DNA of 35,762 bases from Acholeplasma sp. (lineage in GTDB: Bacteria; Bacillota_I; Bacilli_A; Acholeplasmatales; Acholeplasmataceae): NCBI GenBank assembly GCA_012838065.1, contig DUPY01000057.1, positions 1 to 35,762 of the forward strand, read 5' to 3'. Below are positions 10,951 through 26,110 of this stretch, one piece after another. A program made the position numbers and the translations under genes. Below the pieces are notes generated by a model that was not told the origin of the DNA, did not search any database, and was given only the letters and a program-made list of their open reading frames with translations. How positions within the stretch are numbered: position 1 is the stretch's first letter; each line of letters starts with the position of its first letter.

Positions 10951-11619
10951 ATGAAACATGTTGTAGATAAGGCTTTAATTAAACTTCAAAATGTATCGTT
11001 AACATCTAAAACAATGCACACAAAAACAGGTGATATTCGTAAAATATCACAGGAGTTATTTAAAGAACTTGAAGATAAATCGATTCATAATGTTTTAAAC
11101 ATTTGTAAAGAATTATTAGATACGAGAAACTGGAAACTAAGTGTCATTGCTTTTGATTTTGCATATCGAATAAGAAAACAATACACGGATAATATGTTTG
11201 ATGTTTTTGAATCTTGGCTTTATACGTATGTTAGAAACTGATGCGATTGTGATGACTTTTGTACACATGCCTTTGGCTACTTGCTTCAAGCAAGACCGTA
11301 TCTTTATGAAAAAATTATACCATGGACAAAAAGTAATGATTTTTGGGTTAGAAGAGCAAGTGCAGTTATCTTAATTTTATCAATAAAAAATGAAGTAATC
11401 GAAACATCAAAAGTCTTTAAAATATCAGATCTTTTAATGAATGATGATCACGATTTAGTGAGAAAAGGTTATGGCTGGATGTTAAAAGTTTTATCAACGA
11501 AAAATCAACAAATCGTTTTTGATTATTTAATGAAACACAAAACGGATATGCCAAGAGTATCCTTTCGTTATGCTCTTGAAAAAATGGATAAAGAATTAAA
11601 AAAAGTTTTGATGTCATAA
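10951..11619 (+). pseudogene. AlkD-like DNA alkylation repair gene with an in-frame TGA
   Basis: Two same-frame halves (10951-11238 and 11242-11619) join into about 222 codons, the usual length of the AlkD family of HEAT-repeat DNA glycosylases for alkylated bases. The first half ends ESWLYTYVRN, then TGA (11239-11241), then CDCDDFCTHAFGYLLQ. In AlkD the corresponding segment is a conserved Trp, three residues, then the catalytic Asp (W109/D113 in Bacillus cereus AlkD). Here the TGA sits at the Trp place and the Asp four codons later is intact. The later 'DFWVRRASAVILIL' matches the W-x-RR segment with the catalytic-site Arg. The reading frame is otherwise undamaged, so the loss is recent, or TGA is read through. 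The gene starts one base after the phosphorylase stop. Confidence 0.8.
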
Positions 11620-14297: not shown

Positions 14298-14303
14298 ACT
14301 GAT

Positions 14304-14529
14304 ATGGCGTTGAATAAGAGTAGTAGACAGATGTACTAAACATAGAGAACTAGTGGTTGGTGTAAACTAGTAAAAGGCATCTATCGAACGTGCTTAGGAG
14401 CTTATAAGTCGAAGGATCTTGAGGCTTATACGTATGTCGGCGAAAACGACTAGGAGTGCTAGACATTGTCTAGAATTAAGGTGGTACCGCGTTTATTACG
14501 TCCTTAGCTTACGAGCTAAGGATTTTTTT
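14304..14529 (+). promoter_or_regulatory. T-box riboswitch, specifier read as CGU (Arg)
   Basis: Stem I elements are in order: an AGTAGTA start (about 14329), AGAGA (14344-14348), and ACTAGT (14349-14354) closing on ACTAGT (14366-14371) around the GGTTGGTG distal loop. Then comes GAA-CGT-G at 14386-14392, the usual 'GAA, specifier, purine' layout. Stem III is CTAGAC-ATT-GTCTAG (14459-14473). The T-box motif TGGTACCGCG is at 14482-14491. CCTTAGCT-TACG-AGCTAAGG (14502-14521) plus seven T residues forms the terminator. AAGG before the T-box can pair with CCTT to form the antiterminator. Uncharged tRNA would therefore switch on the transporter genes downstream. AAC (Asn), one base earlier, is the main alternative specifier. 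Confidence 0.93.
14502..14529 (+). terminator. Conditional terminator of the T-box leader
   Basis: An eight-base stem with a TACG loop and seven T residues. The left arm competes with the antiterminator helix. Confidence 0.92.
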
Positions 14530-14560
14530 ATTTTTGGACAGAAAAAGGAGAAAAAAGAAA

Positions 14561-15361
14561 ATGTTTAAAAAAGGCTTATTATTTATAATGGTACTTGTTA
14601 CTACATTTGTGTTAGTATCATGTGGCTCATCAAATGTTTATGAATACATTCTTGATGATTCTTACGAAGGATTTATTACTTTAGGTACATCAGCAGACTA
14701 TGCACCATACGAATGGCCTATGAGCGTTGATGGCAAACAAACAATTGTCGGTATTGATATCGAAATTGCAAAAGAAGTAGCTAAAGCATTAAAGAAAAAT
14801 TTAAAAGTTATTAATAAAGGTTTCGACTTCTTATTGGATGACTTACAAAACGGTAAAGTTGATTTCGTACTTGCAGGCATGACACCAAATGAAGACCGTG
14901 CAAAAGTAGTTGACTTTTCTAAAGTATACTATGAAGCAATTCAAGTTATCTTAATTAAAGAATCAAACTTAGATAAATTTACTTCAATTGAATCATTAGA
15001 TGTTGCTACTGTGAAAATTGGTGCACAACTAGGTTCAATTCAACAAGAATTAGCAGAAGAATTTACAAAATCTCAAAAACAATTTATTCAAGCAGTACCA
15101 GATTTAGTATTAAGACTCAATGACGGACAAATAGACGCAGTTATCTTAGAAAAACCAGTTGCTGATGGATATTTAGCAAATACTAAAGGATTAGCTATCG
15201 CCAATATTGCTATTGGGGACCCAGATGGTGGTTCAGCAGTAGCTGTTCAAAAAGGAAATGCTGAATTATTAGCTGTTGTTAATCGTGTAATCGATGAATT
15301 AATCGAAAGTGGCAAAATGGATCAAATCGTTAACGAAATGATTCTGAAAAATGAAAACTAA
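14561..15361 (+). CDS. Polar amino-acid ABC transporter substrate-binding lipoprotein
   Basis: This 266-residue protein is an SBP_bac_3 (type II) binding protein held on the outer face of the membrane by a lipid on Cys21 (lipobox LVSC after a hydrophobic signal). I take ATG 14561, because AAAAGGAG lies just upstream; the preceding TTG frame starts inside the leader. Family motifs: 'TLGTSADYAPYEW' at the start of the mature domain, 'GIDIEIAKEVAKAL', 'VDFVLAGMTPNEDRAKVVDFS' and 'DAVILEKPVADGYL'. It is first in a three-gene operon with its permease and ATPase. T-box control points to Arg (or another tRNA-sensed polar amino acid) as cargo. Confidence 0.9.
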   Translation: MFKKGLLFIMVLVTTFVLVSCGSSNVYEYILDDSYEGFITLGTSADYAPYEWPMSVDGKQTIVGIDIEIAKEVAKALKKNLKVINKGFDFLLDDLQNGKVDFVLAGMTPNEDRAKVVDFSKVYYEAIQVILIKESNLDKFTSIESLDVATVKIGAQLGSIQQELAEEFTKSQKQFIQAVPDLVLRLNDGQIDAVILEKPVADGYLANTKGLAIANIAIGDPDGGSAVAVQKGNAELLAVVNRVIDELIESGKMDQIVNEMILKNEN

Positions 15362-15363
15362 CA

Positions 15364-16041
15364 ATGAATTTTAAGTTTATCTTAGATCCATATTATATTG
15401 GTATTTTCCTACAAGGGTTAGGAATGACAATATTATTGGCGGTATTGTCAGTGATTCTAGGCTCGTTACTAGGACTCATACCAGCATTTATGCGTTTATC
15501 TAAAAATAAAGTGTTAAAGTATTCAGCAACTGCATATGTGGAAATTATTAGAGGAACCCCTTTATTAGTTCAAGTTTTACTTATTTACTCATTTGTACAA
15601 ATGCCAGTTACTTTATTTATAGGCATTGATTTATCTTCATTTATTCCAGGTATGCTTGCATTACTTATTAATTCAAGTGCTTACGTATCTGAAGTTATTC
15701 GTGGAGGTATCTTATCTGTTGACCGTGGTCAGAAGGAAGCGGCACTAAGTTTAGGGTTAAGTGATGCGCAAACAATGAAACGCATCGTCTTGCCGCAGGC
15801 AATTAAAAATATTATTCCTGCACTTGGTAACGAATTTGTAACAATGATTAAAGAAACATCTATCTTTATGTATTTAGGTATTGCAGAACTTATGTATAGT
15901 GCTGTTATAGTTAGAAGTCAAACATATTTAGTAAAAGAAGCCTATATTATTGTTGCCATCTTATATTTCGCACTAACCTTTCCAACATCTAAATTGATGG
16001 CGTATATTGAAAGGAGATTAAAAGTTAGCGATGCAAAATAA
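15364..16041 (+). CDS. Amino-acid ABC transporter permease (HisM/GlnP family)
   Basis: This 225-residue membrane protein starts two bases after the binding-protein stop. It has about five transmembrane helices. The N-terminal family motif '[19 protein letters not shown]' and '[18 protein letters not shown]' are present. The coupling-loop EAA motif reads '[34 protein letters not shown]', split here for length, and contacts the ATPase. The C-terminus overlaps the ATPase gene by 11 bases. It probably works as a homodimer. Confidence 0.92.
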
Positions 16042-16774
16042 AATAATACAAGTTATTGATCTTAAAAAAGAATTCAAAGATGGAACTAAAGCATTAAATG
16101 GTTGCACTGTTAGTTTTGAAGAAGGCAAGGTAACTGTAATTATTGGGCCAAGTGGTTCAGGAAAATCAACGTTACTACGTATGCTCAATTTAATGGAAGA
16201 GCCAACATCTGGCGATATCTTAATGCAAGGCCAATCGATTTTAACAAAAGATTTCAATATCCAACAACATCGTGAACATGTTGGTATGGTTTTTCAAAAC
16301 TTCAATTTATTTCCTCATTTAAGTATTATAGATAATTTAAACTTAGCTCAAATACTTGTTAAGAAAAAAACAGTGGAAGAAGCGACAGCAACTTCGCTTA
16401 AACTTCTAGAAAAAGTTGGGCTAATTGAAAAGAAAAACAATTATCCAAATCAATTATCAGGCGGGCAAAAACAACGTATAGCTATCGCTCGTGCGCTTGC
16501 TATGGAGCCAAAAGTTATGTTGTTTGATGAGCCGACAAGCGCGCTTGACCCAGAAATGATCGGTGAAGTTTTAAATGTTATGAAAGACTTAGCAAATTCG
16601 GGTATGACAATGATTGTTGTTACACACGAAATGGGCTTTGCAAAGGCGTTTGCAGACAAGGTTATTGTTATGGATGCTGGATTAATTATTGAAGAAAATG
16701 ATCCTTCAGTTCTATTTAAAAATCCTTCGAGTGAGCGTACAAAAAACTTCTTAAACAAAGTTTTATCAATTTAA
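16031..16774 (+). CDS. Amino-acid ABC transporter ATP-binding protein (HisP/GlnQ family)
   Basis: This 247-residue ATPase drives the transporter above. Walker A is GPSGSGKST at 39-47, the Q-loop is in '[12 protein letters not shown]', the signature is LSGGQKQR, Walker B is VMLFDEP and the H-loop is VVTHE. An AGGAG site (16012-16016) lies inside the permease gene and sets the start at 16031. The residues after Walker B (TSALDPEM) are typical of polar amino-acid importers. It is the last gene of the operon and is followed by a shared terminator. Confidence 0.95.
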
Positions 16775-21802: not shown

Positions 21803-21834
21803 AAGTCTAGGAAGTAAACCCTAGACTTTTTTTA
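21803..21834 (+). terminator. Terminator of recA
   Basis: AAGTCTAGG (21803-21811) pairs with CCTAGACTT (21820-21828) and runs into a T-run. A smaller AAACTATT/AATAGTTT stem (21787-21802) precedes it. Confidence 0.9.
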
Positions 21835-21930
21835 TTTATATATGATCATATGAAAATACGTCATAAATACATTCAGATTTCTTAATACATGATACGATTG
21901 CGGATAAATATGTGTCATCAATTGTCTTAT

Positions 21931-21940
21931 TTGGTATAAT
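21931..21940 (+). promoter_or_regulatory. Extended -10 promoter of the NRPS gene
   Basis: TTGG-TATAAT (TATAAT at 21935-21940) with a TGn extension and a poor -35 (GTGTCA at 21912-21917). The start codon is 23 bases downstream. Confidence 0.55.
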
Positions 21941-21962
21941 AAGATAAAGGTTCGGTGAGGAC

Positions 21963-24900
21963 ATGTTCTCTACAGTTCAAAAAAATATGTTAAATGCTTT
22001 CCATTATTATGGAGAAAAATATCCCATTCATATTGGAGGGATTTTATACTTGCCAAAAGCATATAAAGATAGACTCATAGAAGCTATTTATCATGTAACT
22101 AGCGATATTGAATTACTAGAGTATACACTTTTAAACAATACTTTTGTTAAGACGAAACAAACGTTAGTCATTGATGAATTATTCGACATCTCAGCAATCC
22201 AATCATATTTCGATAAACCATTTATAGAGGAAACATTACTTTATCGAATAGGCATACTTATTCAAAAAGATAATCTTTTACTTATATCTGTATTCAATCA
22301 TTTAATTAGTGATAGCTACAGCATGAATCTGTTCTTACATGCTGTTTTATCGTATATAAGTCAAAAGGAAGTATTTGAATTTAATAATAACTATGACGAT
22401 TTTGTTAAGAGTGAACATGAAGGGAAAAACACACGAGATTTTTGGAAAAACTATTTAGAAAACTATAGCCTAACATCTATATCCAGTTTTCCATATACAA
22501 AAAAATTATTTAAAACAACTCGTAAAGCACTCACCTTTTCAAATTCTGAATCGAAACTTATTGATGAATTTTGCATCAAACATAATGTTTCACCAGCAAT
22601 TGTATTTGAATCAGCATTAAGCTATATCTTAAGTCATATTCACGGTGAAAACAATGTTACATATGGCATTACATCACTTAATCGAAAATCAGCATTTAAA
22701 CAAACCTTTGGACCGTTTATTCAAACCCTTCCAATAAAAGTTGAATTAAAAAATTCAATAAGTGAGACACTAAAAAGCATTCAAAGACGACATATGGAAG
22801 TTTTTCGCCATCAAAGTGTTGATTACAAAGACTTGTTGTATCTAAATAAAAATGAAGGTGTGTTATTTGATGCGTTAATTACTTACCATAAGCCATTAGA
22901 TGAAACTTATAATATACCATATAAGTATGAAGTCTTAAATAGTTCCTATAACGATTTACCTCTAGTAATAAACATTGAGCGAAGAAACTTAAATCATCCC
23001 TATATAGTTTATTTTGACTTAAGTAGTGAAATATTCAATGATGAGGAAGAAAGGTTTTTAAAACGATTTAAACACGTTTTACTTGACATCATACATGAAC
23101 ACAAAATAACTTACCTACTTGAAGATGAAGCGTGTTACTATAACAATCAATATGTGTCTTGTTATCGTAAAAAACAGTCATTGATTGATACGATTGAAAC
23201 AACTTTAAATATGTATAACTATTTAAAAATTTATGATTTAAATAATGAAATGACGTTTGAAAAATTAAATAGACTTCGTAAAAAGTTCGCATATAAGCTA
23301 AATATGTTTTATGAACATGAAGAAATTATTGAATTAAATCTTGATAAATCGATTGAATTAGTAATTGCTATATTAGGTGTATTAACAGCGGGGAAGATAT
23401 TTACAATAAAACAGCAAAACAAGTCCATTTATCCATCAATTTCAATGGATTTCTTTAAGGATATTGAATCCTATGGTTTTTTAGATAATAAGCCTAATGA
23501 AAGAATTGCAGTTTATTACACATCAGGTACAGAAGGACCAAGTAAAAAAGTTTTACTCACGGAGGATGCACTATTAAACTATATAGAAAATGTACCTTTT
23601 AGTTGTAACATTACAACAAAAGATACCATATTAAGTATATCTAACCCAACATTTGATATTTTTTTAGAAGATATAATGCTCGCTTTTATCAAAGGAACAT
23701 CGATTGTGTTATGCGATCTTGAGCACACATCACAAATCGATAAAGAATTGACATACATATCAACAACACCAAGTGTTATTTATCACCTTTTGGAATATCA
23801 TACATCAATTTTTAATTCAGTAAAACACATTGTATTAGGTGGTGAGACCCTCACACAAAATATAGTAAATAAACTAAAAAGTGTGTCTCAGGCAACAATC
23901 TACAATACCTATGGTCCAACAGAGACTACGATTGCCGTAACAGCAACAAAAGTTGATAAAGAGTTAAGTATTGGTAAACCTATAAAAAACGTAATCGTTG
24001 AAGTGCGTTCAAAGAATAAAAAACGATTACCATTTTATACATTAGGTGAAATAACTGTAGGTGGCATCGCATTAGCAGACCATATTGACCTAACAGGAAC
24101 AGAAGAAGGCTTGCGATATTTTACAGGCGACTATGGCTATATAGATAGTAAAGGTTTTATACATTTTTTAGGCCGCCGTGACCGTGAAATTAAAAGGCGT
24201 GGTGTCAGAATCAATTTAGAAGGTTTAGACAATATCTTAAATGGTCATCCATTAGTAAAACAGGCCGTATCTAAATATCATGATGGAAAAATAATTAGTT
24301 ATATCGATGGTTTAAACCTTTCAAAAGAGACAATCTATAATTACTTAAAAGAGAATTTACCACAAACATGGTTACCCGATGGAATCGAAAACTTAAATGC
24401 AAGTTTATCCAACCACGGGAAACTTAAAGTCAATCGTAAATCGATATTTAAACCAAAGACAAAAAAAGAAAAAACCTTTTTAAAGGTAGTAAAAAAGGTC
24501 TTTGAAATTGATAAACTTTATGTAGAAGATACATTTAATGATATTCATGGCACATCAATTAAAGCATTAATTTTAATTATTGAGCTGGAAAAATATGGTA
24601 TACACATATCGATGTCAAACATTTATAATACACGCTATGTTGTTGATTTATTAAATCATAAACAAAATGAAGGCTTAGAGATAGATTTCAACAACTTTAA
24701 ATTAGAAGCTAATGAAATTATTTACAAGGAAAAAAAACCAAAAGAAGTTTTAGTCCTTGGTGCAAGCGGCTATTTAGGCAGTCATCTCACATTTGAACTT
24801 ATGAAACAAAACATTCGAGTTATTGCATATGTGAGAGATCAACATAGATTTTATACACACTATAATAAGTATTTCAATGAATCTTTTAACGGCATTATGA

Positions 24901-25628
24901 TTGAAGGACATACAAGAGAACTTAAAAACAAACTTAAATCATTTGACATTGATTGTGTAATTAACTGTATTGCTAAAGTTGATTACGTAGGTGAAGCGCG
25001 ATTGTATGAAGAAGCAAATGTTCAAAGTGTTGTTGATATCTTAGCGTATGTAAATGAAATAAATATCCCTTTATATCACATATCCACATTAGGTCTTGGC
25101 ATAAACCAAGAAGATTTTAACGAAACAAGTAAAATTAAAAATCCAATGTATGATAATTTATACTTAAAATCAAAATTCATGGCCGAATATCTTGTTTTAA
25201 AAGAAAATATCGATAAAGTTAAACACCACATTATCCGAGTTGGTAATTTAATGCCTAGATTTAAGGATTATAAGTTTCAAATTAACAAAGAGGAAAACTT
25301 ATTTATGTTGCTACTCCAAAATGCTAAAAAGACAAAAGTATTACCACAGAGTTATCAAAATACTTTGTTTGACGTATCACCAGTTGATTTCGTATCAAAG
25401 AAAATAGTTCATCTTATTAAATATGAAACAAATATGCCTGTATATCATGTTTTTGAAGAACCAAAAGTAACACTTGAAGAAATAATCGGTAATATTCATT
25501 ACGATAAAGGTACACATCTATCGATACCAATCATCAGTGCCTCGTCGAAATATACAAATATGCTTTTAGATGAAACAAAGTACCCTAAATTATATATTGA
25601 TCAAACCTATTTGAAACATATGTTATAA
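21963..25628 (+). CDS. Single-module nonribosomal peptide synthetase, C-A-PCP-reductase
   Basis: This 1221-residue enzyme starts at ATG behind GGTGAGG. The condensation domain (about 1-385) has NHLISDS, where His113 and Asp117 keep the HxxxD core. The adenylation domain (about 400-830) has A3 YYTSGTEGPSKK (518-529), A5 NTYGPTETT (648-656), A7 YFTGDYG (719-725), A8 GRRDREIKRRGVRI (737-750) and A10 HGKLKVNRK, with Lys820 or Lys822. The carrier domain (about 835-900) carries the phosphopantetheine Ser865 in IHGTSI. The terminal reductase (about 925-1221) has the NAD(P) motif GASGYLG (933-939) and the Tyr1067/Lys1071 pair. It should load one amino acid, join it to an acyl or aminoacyl donor, and release it as an aldehyde or alcohol. 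By hand alignment to GrsA, the pocket is D-I-E-S-I-L-T-I-A-K. No phosphopantetheinyl transferase, thioesterase or tailoring gene is nearby. Lys2-like aminoadipate reductase is the main alternative family, but the condensation core argues against it. Confidence 0.92.
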   Translation: MFSTVQKNMLNAFHYYGEKYPIHIGGILYLPKAYKDRLIEAIYHVTSDIELLEYTLLNNTFVKTKQTLVIDELFDISAIQSYFDKPFIEETLLYRIGILIQKDNLLLISVFNHLISDSYSMNLFLHAVLSYISQKEVFEFNNNYDDFVKSEHEGKNTRDFWKNYLENYSLTSISSFPYTKKLFKTTRKALTFSNSESKLIDEFCIKHNVSPAIVFESALSYILSHIHGENNVTYGITSLNRKSAFKQTFGPFIQTLPIKVELKNSISETLKSIQRRHMEVFRHQSVDYKDLLYLNKNEGVLFDALITYHKPLDETYNIPYKYEVLNSSYNDLPLVINIERRNLNHPYIVYFDLSSEIFNDEEERFLKRFKHVLLDIIHEHKITYLLEDEACYYNNQYVSCYRKKQSLIDTIETTLNMYNYLKIYDLNNEMTFEKLNRLRKKFAYKLNMFYEHEEIIELNLDKSIELVIAILGVLTAGKIFTIKQQNKSIYPSISMDFFKDIESYGFLDNKPNERIAVYYTSGTEGPSKKVLLTEDALLNYIENVPFSCNITTKDTILSISNPTFDIFLEDIMLAFIKGTSIVLCDLEHTSQIDKELTYISTTPSVIYHLLEYHTSIFNSVKHIVLGGETLTQNIVNKLKSVSQATIYNTYGPTETTIAVTATKVDKELSIGKPIKNVIVEVRSKNKKRLPFYTLGEITVGGIALADHIDLTGTEEGLRYFTGDYGYIDSKGFIHFLGRRDREIKRRGVRINLEGLDNILNGHPLVKQAVSKYHDGKIISYIDGLNLSKETIYNYLKENLPQTWLPDGIENLNASLSNHGKLKVNRKSIFKPKTKKEKTFLKVVKKVFEIDKLYVEDTFNDIHGTSIKALILIIELEKYGIHISMSNIYNTRYVVDLLNHKQNEGLEIDFNNFKLEANEIIYKEKKPKEVLVLGASGYLGSHLTFELMKQNIRVIAYVRDQHRFYTHYNKYFNESFNGIMIEGHTRELKNKLKSFDIDCVINCIAKVDYVGEARLYEEANVQSVVDILAYVNEINIPLYHISTLGLGINQEDFNETSKIKNPMYDNLYLKSKFMAEYLVLKENIDKVKHHIIRVGNLMPRFKDYKFQINKEENLFMLLLQNAKKTKVLPQSYQNTLFDVSPVDFVSKKIVHLIKYETNMPVYHVFEEPKVTLEEIIGNIHYDKGTHLSIPIISASSKYTNMLLDETKYPKLYIDQTYLKHML

Positions 25629-25664
25629 AAAAGTGGTAGGCGAGTTTAATGCCTACCACTTTTA
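25629..25664. terminator. Bidirectional terminator between the NRPS gene and dps
   Basis: AAGTGGTAGGC (25631-25641) pairs with GCCTACCACTT (25651-25661), with A-rich and T-rich flanks that serve both converging genes. Confidence 0.9.
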
Positions 25665-25672
25665 ATATTCAA

Positions 25673-26110
25673 TTATTTATTTAAGTAAAACTTTAACATC
25701 CACGCATGTTTTTCAAATGCAGCAATTGTTGAAATACATAAATCTGCAGTTACTTCATCGCCTAAACCTTGTGCAACATCAATGATTGCTTTTAAGTTTT
25801 CAGCAATATGTAAAAAATCATGTAAGATGGCTTCAACCATTTCTGCTGAATCTTTTTCCTCGGTTTCTTCTTTTAATGTTGTAAGTGTTAAGTATTCTTT
25901 TAAAGTTGAAGCAGGTTTTCCACCAATTGTTAATAATCTTTCTGCAAACTCATCATACAGTTCATTAACTTCATTGTAATACTCTTCAAACTTTTCATGT
26001 AGCGCGAAGAAGTTAGAACCCTTTACATACCAATGATAGTGATGCAATTTAACGAAAAACACTTGTAAATCACTAACTACCACATTCAAACTCTTTTGTA
26101 ATTTTTCCAT
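25673..26110 (-). CDS. dps: Dps-family ferritin-like protein (DNA protection/iron storage)
   Basis: This 145-residue protein assembles as a 12-mer, oxidises Fe(II) with peroxide and stores iron, protecting DNA. Ferroxidase residues match the E. coli Dps spacing: His26, His38, Glu42 (in the Asp67 place), Asp53 and Glu57. 'HHYHWYVKG' and 'ERLLTIGGKP' are family motifs. AAGGAGG precedes the ATG. The N-terminus is short and lacks the Lys-rich DNA-binding tail, so direct DNA binding is uncertain. It stands alone with its own promoter. Confidence 0.94.
   Translation of the reverse strand: MEKLQKSLNVVVSDLQVFFVKLHHYHWYVKGSNFFALHEKFEEYYNEVNELYDEFAERLLTIGGKPASTLKEYLTLTTLKEETEEKDSAEMVEAILHDFLHIAENLKAIIDVAQGLGDEVTADLCISTIAAFEKHAWMLKFYLNK

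Follow-up and report, generated by a model that had tools for sequence, protein, structure and literature searches.

We analysed a 35,762-nucleotide contig (DUPY01000057.1, complete and hereafter the window) from a draft genome of Acholeplasma sp. (GCA_012838065.1; 1.18 Mb, 98.4% complete, 67 contigs). It encodes a single-module nonribosomal peptide synthetase (NRPS) of 1221 residues, in which condensation (C), adenylation (A), peptidyl carrier (PCP) and reductase (R) domains follow one another in one chain (21963..25628, + strand). Reductive-release NRPSs are already known as a kind; the stand-alone Acholeplasmatales clade to which this protein belongs is new. On balance we lean towards a reading in which this cluster-free enzyme would join an acyl group from primary metabolism to lysine, arginine or ornithine, and, by reductive release, yield an N-acyl amino aldehyde or alcohol.

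Domain organisation and catalytic residues

The NRPS gene, delimited by the open reading frame call, profile matches and homologues, runs from an ATG start to a TAA stop with zero internal stops across its 1221 codons. As the initial annotation of this DNA had proposed from reading the letters, Pfam searches recovered the expected domains, with matches over cut-off for Condensation (82.0 bits, cut-off 30.6), AMP-binding (110.3 bits, cut-off 29.9) and NAD_binding_4 (56.3 bits, cut-off 20.1). The PP-binding match was weak in the whole-protein scan (16.4 bits, cut-off 20.8), while the same PCP cleared the cut-off in a genome-wide carrier scan (21.6 bits). At the level of sequence, these matches confirm a reductive-release NRPS of the general kind with all four domains in one chain.

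The C domain (residues 2-390; 21966..23132, + strand), supported by Pfam, trees and a structural model, carries the motif NHLISDS with H113 and D117 kept. It is followed by the A domain (residues 401-830; 23163..24452, + strand), for which Pfam and an alignment with EntF as control give the 10-residue code DIESVGTIAK and the A10 lysine K820, and by the PCP (residues 832-904; 24456..24674, + strand), placed by Pfam and the homologue alignment, with Ser865 as the phosphopantetheine site. The terminal NAD(P)-dependent R domain (residues 922-1206; 24726..25580, + strand), identified by Pfam, alignment and a structure match, contains GASGYLG, T1042, Y1067 and K1071. The catalytic residues that had been named at the outset (His113/Asp117, Ser865, GASGYLG and Tyr1067/Lys1071) proved invariant in alignments of homologues: H113 and D117 across 20 aligned C domains, Ser865 across six aligned homologues, and all of these (GASGYLG as the loop GxxGxLG), together with K528, D723, K820 and T1042, within the Acholeplasmatales C-A-PCP-R family. 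The loop, T1042, Y1067 and K1071 also align with a solved reductase domain. The description "largely kept" holds for these residues and less so for the motifs around them, HHxxxDG being altered to NHxxxDS and the PCP motif reading HGTSI. An AlphaFold model of the C domain (pLDDT 87.5) matched C domains in the PDB in a structure search; the model of the A-PCP-R part is moderate (pLDDT 78, pTM 0.50).

Distribution and phylogeny

Homologues of the same layout, with 27-33% identity, occur in six other Acholeplasmatales genomes: Acholeplasmataceae bacterium UBA5409 (G052), isolate STCSWMC_141 (G060), G003 and three Paracholeplasma genomes (G043, G048 and G158), among them that of the cultured Paracholeplasma vituli 92-19 (G048). 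The G043 copy is divided by a contig end. Premature stops in relatives, which would have told against the initial annotation, are absent from the six homologues. Of 160 genomes from the order, 7 thus carry the window-type NRPS and 21 a condensation domain of any kind; in other members of the order (the f3 genomes), longer frames of roughly 2400-2950 codons encode proteins that contain two C domains and end in an R domain. No further window-like protein turned up among 392 genomes drawn from the phylum. Related-locus searches returned no relatives when started from the single window protein and 80 when started from the family alignment. One other stand-alone protein of the order, encoded in G012 (C29; L030:5256-8744), has a C-A-PCP-thioesterase layout (1162 residues, code DGIIMAGVLK, thioesterase match slightly below cut-off), and its gene adjoins those of a radical SAM protein and a family III CoA-transferase.

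An NRPS had been thought unexpected in an Acholeplasma-like genome. The host is indeed a member of the Acholeplasmatales, and the gene type is not unique to it. Contamination is unlikely as the source of the gene, because its base composition fits the contig (G+C 29%, compared with 31% for the remaining contig; G+C at third positions 22%, compared with about 20% for neighbouring genes) and because the contig also holds housekeeping genes, recA, typA and prfA among them, whose names were read from sequence. The ratio of nonsynonymous to synonymous substitution rates (dN/dS) is about 0.15-0.22 in close homologue pairs, and about 0.22 for the C segment in the G158-G043 pair; the family is therefore under purifying selection. 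The NRPS gene diverges more than housekeeping genes.

The seven proteins form one clade in each domain tree, with Shimodaira-Hasegawa-like approximate likelihood ratio test (SH-aLRT) support of 94 for the R domain, 99-100 for the C domain and 100 for the A domain. Under a mixture model the C clade joins N-terminal starter C domains, among them that of E. coli EntF (SH-aLRT 99). Starter C domains are a class known from CDA, RzmA and EntF; identity to the solved ones is 13-14%. A fold search confirms the fold of the C domain and does not separate the classes, LgrA and SrfA-C ranking higher. The reductive NRPSs of gut bacteria and Methanobrevibacter, which yield dipeptide aldehydes (PMC8210680, citing Guo et al. 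2017), share the terminal thioester reductase and differ in having more than one module and C and R domains in other clades. Larger proteins of two C domains that end in an R domain are found in the f3 genomes and also in Clostridia. Descent of the window protein from a dimodular AusA-like enzyme through loss of the first module is disfavoured, since its C, A and R clades are separate and not nested in the gut dimodular proteins; the approximately unbiased (AU) test on the C domain does leave room for such an origin.

Stand-alone C-A-T-R proteins (T denoting the carrier) from rumen and gut Prevotella metagenome-assembled genomes (L050, L067, L074, L083, L089, L091 and L104) have the same domain order and size and also carry E at the third code position. 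They differ in their code, D[AG]ECCGTVDK, and their C and R domains belong to a different clade, which suggests that this layout has more than one origin.

Substrate, acyl donor and carrier activation

The A-domain code DIESVGTIAK corresponds to D[IM]E[ST]VGSIAK in the relatives and to D[IM]E[ST]VG[ST]IAK clade-wide. In the control alignment EntF reads DVWHFSLVDK, which we take to be its serine code. The substrate is likely a basic amino acid (lysine, arginine or ornithine), because the nearest codes in the literature belong to lysine (BacB, DAESIGSV; PMC3207962), to arginine, accepted along with tyrosine (anabaenopeptin A1, DVESIG[AVG]IAK; PMC5311044), and to arginine or homoarginine (DVESIGGVTK; PMC12283262). 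The code does not separate the three candidates; lysine would be the most likely, followed by arginine or ornithine.

Family profile searches, on which all statements about the rest of this genome are based, found one AMP-binding domain in total, that of the NRPS, a single condensation domain and two carrier domains, the NRPS PCP and the fatty-acid carrier AcpP. They found no second A domain, AMP-ligase, NRPS carrier or aryl carrier. This strengthens the earlier argument that, with only one A domain, the C domain must take its partner from elsewhere, such as an acyl-coenzyme A (acyl-CoA) or an acyl group on an acyl carrier protein (acyl-ACP). Starter C domains take acyl-ACP or acyl-CoA (PMC7804268). 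As the genome showed no AMP-forming ligase of this family that could provide either an aryl or a fatty acyl group, acyl-ACP or acetyl-CoA from primary metabolism would remain as donor. Genes for fatty-acid synthesis are present as an operon, fabK-fabD-fabG-fabF-fabZ, in which FabF was identified by hidden Markov model and the others were named by motif.

The genome also encodes both transferase types that the initial annotation had suggested looking for, namely an AcpS (on C31) and, elsewhere, a 211-residue Sfp-type phosphopantetheinyl transferase (TIGR00556, 50.2 bits, cut-off 45.35), which in addition scores 51.5 bits to AusB. In G003 the transferase lies in the same context, with DegV, EngB, Lon and trigger factor on one side and GNAT, ValS and FolC on the other (read from sequence). 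Across the order, Sfp-type transferase and NRPS co-occur (14/18 versus 32/142, Fisher p 6e-6); with the genomes being related and Paracholeplasma breaking the rule, this association is only supporting.

A proposed route to N-acyl amino aldehydes

Building on the domain order, the catalytic residues, the code, the single set of carrier, A and C domains, the fatty-acid synthesis genes and the transferase, we infer a substrate, donor, product, redox level and role for the NRPS as follows. The Sfp-type transferase would prime the PCP, and the A domain would activate a basic amino acid and load it there. The starter-like C domain would then acylate the amino group with a fatty acyl-ACP from type II fatty-acid synthesis or with acetyl-CoA. 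Finally, the R domain would use NAD(P)H to release the N-acyl aminoacyl thioester, giving an N-acyl amino aldehyde that may be reduced on to the alcohol. Such a route would resemble that of MxcG, which acylates lysine and releases its product by reduction (PMC8400222), minus the catechol supply.

Several observations weigh against this route. The C-domain motif here is N-H-x-x-x-D-S, which departs from HHxxxDG at its first His and at its Gly and keeps the second His and the Asp; the relatives read HHLVCDG, HHILLDG and SHVLVDG. The initial annotation had proposed placing the C domain against the starter and LCL classes. The starter grouping came out as described above, and a starter type is favoured, not proven, on phylogenetic grounds, because the AU test leaves unrejected both a placement beside the gut-type C domains of reductive NRPSs (p 0.11) and one beside LCL domains (p 0.063). 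A similar A-domain code occurs where tyrosine is accepted together with arginine. In the Paracholeplasma homologue genomes (G043, G048 and G158) only an AcpS-type transferase was detected, and an Sfp-type partner is therefore not universal in the family. Lastly, the draft status of the genome leaves room for a missing partner gene.

Comparison with known systems and alternative explanations

AusA had been named as an example of a reductive-release NRPS known elsewhere. It is not the nearest precedent in architecture: MxcG, a C-A-PCP-R enzyme that uses lysine, is closer in layout, and family scores place the window protein in neither family. The AusA/PznA model (NF047350) did give the best NCBIfam score (243.7 bits), over the A-PCP-R part; the AusA reductase structure (4F6L/4F6C) matches the window R domain, and AusA has an Sfp-type partner, AusB, as the window genome has an Sfp-type transferase. 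AusA differs in being dimodular, with a cut-off of 2500 bits, whereas the window protein has a single A domain and begins with its C domain.

The likeness to AusA bears on the alternative that we rate highest, although we think it improbable, namely self-condensation. One protomer's PCP would pass its aminoacyl group to the C domain of a second, and the resulting dipeptide aldehyde, Lys-Lys-al for instance, would cyclise to a pyrazinone, as happens with AusA. The genome searches revealed no other aminoacyl donor on a carrier, the top family score is that of AusA, and AusA-type reductive NRPSs yield dipeptide aldehydes and pyrazinones (PMC8210680). Self-condensation would, however, require a dimer in which one domain type serves as both donor and acceptor carrier; the C domain groups with starter, not elongation, domains, and AusA, the characterised pyrazinone enzyme, itself has two modules.

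Somewhat less probable again is a relic C domain in a protein that acts as an amino-acid reductase of A-PCP-R type, yielding a free amino aldehyde, an amino alcohol or a cyclic imine. The eroded motif (NHLISDS here, SHVLVDG in the G158 homologue) and the low Pfam scores of Paracholeplasma homologue C domains (45.5 and 70.2 bits) would fit this. Enzymes of A-PCP-R type without a C domain do exist: in the livipeptin pathway of Streptomyces lividans such a protein, with predicted arginine, leads to a peptide aldehyde, the amide being made by an L/F-transferase-like, tRNA-dependent enzyme (PMC10548850). Against a relic stand the invariant H113 and D117, the presence of the C segment in every complete homologue, its dN/dS of about 0.22 and its intact predicted fold.

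A non-fatty acyl or aryl donor of unspecified making or import, leading to a myxochelin-like siderophore, is decidedly unlikely in our view. The parallel is MxcG (NF038078), likewise a single C-A-PCP-R module. Its C domain acylates an amino group of lysine with an aryl donor, release is reductive with NADPH, and the aldehyde is reduced further (PMC8400222). A Fur-family regulator and a zinc-uptake gene are also present in the window. The window protein, however, scores only 112.2 bits against the MxcG cut-off of 2300. As to the lysine-type A domain of MxcG, the window code is of a basic-residue type seen with lysine, with arginine, and with arginine plus tyrosine. No dihydroxybenzoate pathway (the MxcE/MxcF-like 2,3-dihydroxybenzoate route), aryl carrier or second ligase was detected in the genome. 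MxcG lies in a siderophore cluster, whereas the window gene stands alone, with no siderophore transport genes adjoining it.

Decay of a recent, functionless acquisition seems slightly less probable still. The patchy distribution in the order, the few conserved neighbours and the divergence above that of housekeeping genes are what it would predict; the 1221 open codons with their catalytic residues, the family dN/dS, the matching G+C and the position kept within Paracholeplasma argue the other way. A Lys2-like aminoadipate reductase, which the initial annotation had raised as one outcome that would overturn it, shares the A-PCP-R order and a distant similarity, and is refuted by a TIGR03443 score of 61.8 bits, far under the cut-off of 1030, and by the condensation domain; we also take DIESVGTIAK not to be an aminoadipate-type code.

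Implications

Our search of the open-access literature found no report of an NRPS in Acholeplasma, Acholeplasmatales, Mollicutes or Tenericutes. Mollicutes are commonly viewed as reduced parasites or commensals that synthesise little. One gene under purifying selection, with the fatty-acid ACP as the sole other carrier, would make up a very small and testable natural-product pathway, and the cultured Paracholeplasma vituli homologue lets the product be sought directly. More tentatively, and with the odds in our view against it, the clade, so far seen only in Acholeplasmatales, may draw on fatty-acid synthesis to make lipid aldehydes of the N-acyl lysinal or argininal type, acting as leupeptin-like protease inhibitors or signals. 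If so, they would be the first nonribosomal products to be described from wall-less bacteria, and their making would call for no dedicated ligase, carrier or transporter. By analogy with leupeptin, trypsin-like or cysteine proteases would be the expected targets of N-acyl basic aldehydes, with a possible part in interactions with a host or neighbours.

Genomic surroundings

The NRPS gene had been described as isolated from its neighbours by its own promoter and terminator. The terminators stand: an intrinsic terminator 3' of recA (21803..21828, + strand) sets the gene apart from recA, and a 13-pair hairpin (25630..25662, -18.8 kcal/mol) between the NRPS gene and a convergent gene for a dps-like ferritin (25673-26110) is likely a two-way terminator. 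The promoter does not stand beyond a consensus match: the promoter-like sequence GTGTCA - 17 - TATAAT (21912..21940, + strand), TG-extended (TG-TATAAT element at 21935-21940) and 22 bases upstream of the ATG, lies in a region where promoter-like matches are not above those of shuffled sequence (22 observed, shuffled mean 29). A ribosome-binding-site-like GGTGAG, read from sequence, lies at 21954..21959 (+ strand).

Among the homologues, no tailoring or transport partner gene recurs in the neighbourhoods. Within Paracholeplasma the gene keeps its place, flanked by trpS and a diacylglycerol-kinase-like gene; its neighbour in G052 and G060 is a DEAD-box helicase gene (both read from sequence). 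Contexts otherwise differ. In G052 and G060 only, a conserved 313-residue regulator-like protein (L023:4771-5712, L024:5751-6692), which reads as a helix-turn-helix plus repeats, precedes the NRPS gene, and a small membrane protein is also encoded upstream.

Elsewhere in the window, a DNA alkylation repair gene (PF08713; 10888-11619, + strand) is split in two by an in-frame TGA at 11239-11241, which looks like a nonsense mutation; other window genes end normally in TGA. A T-box riboswitch (RF00230, 130 bits; 14301-14508, + strand) lies upstream of an amino-acid ABC transporter (14534-16774). Its specifier appears to be CGU, for arginine, which would make the transporter an arginine importer.

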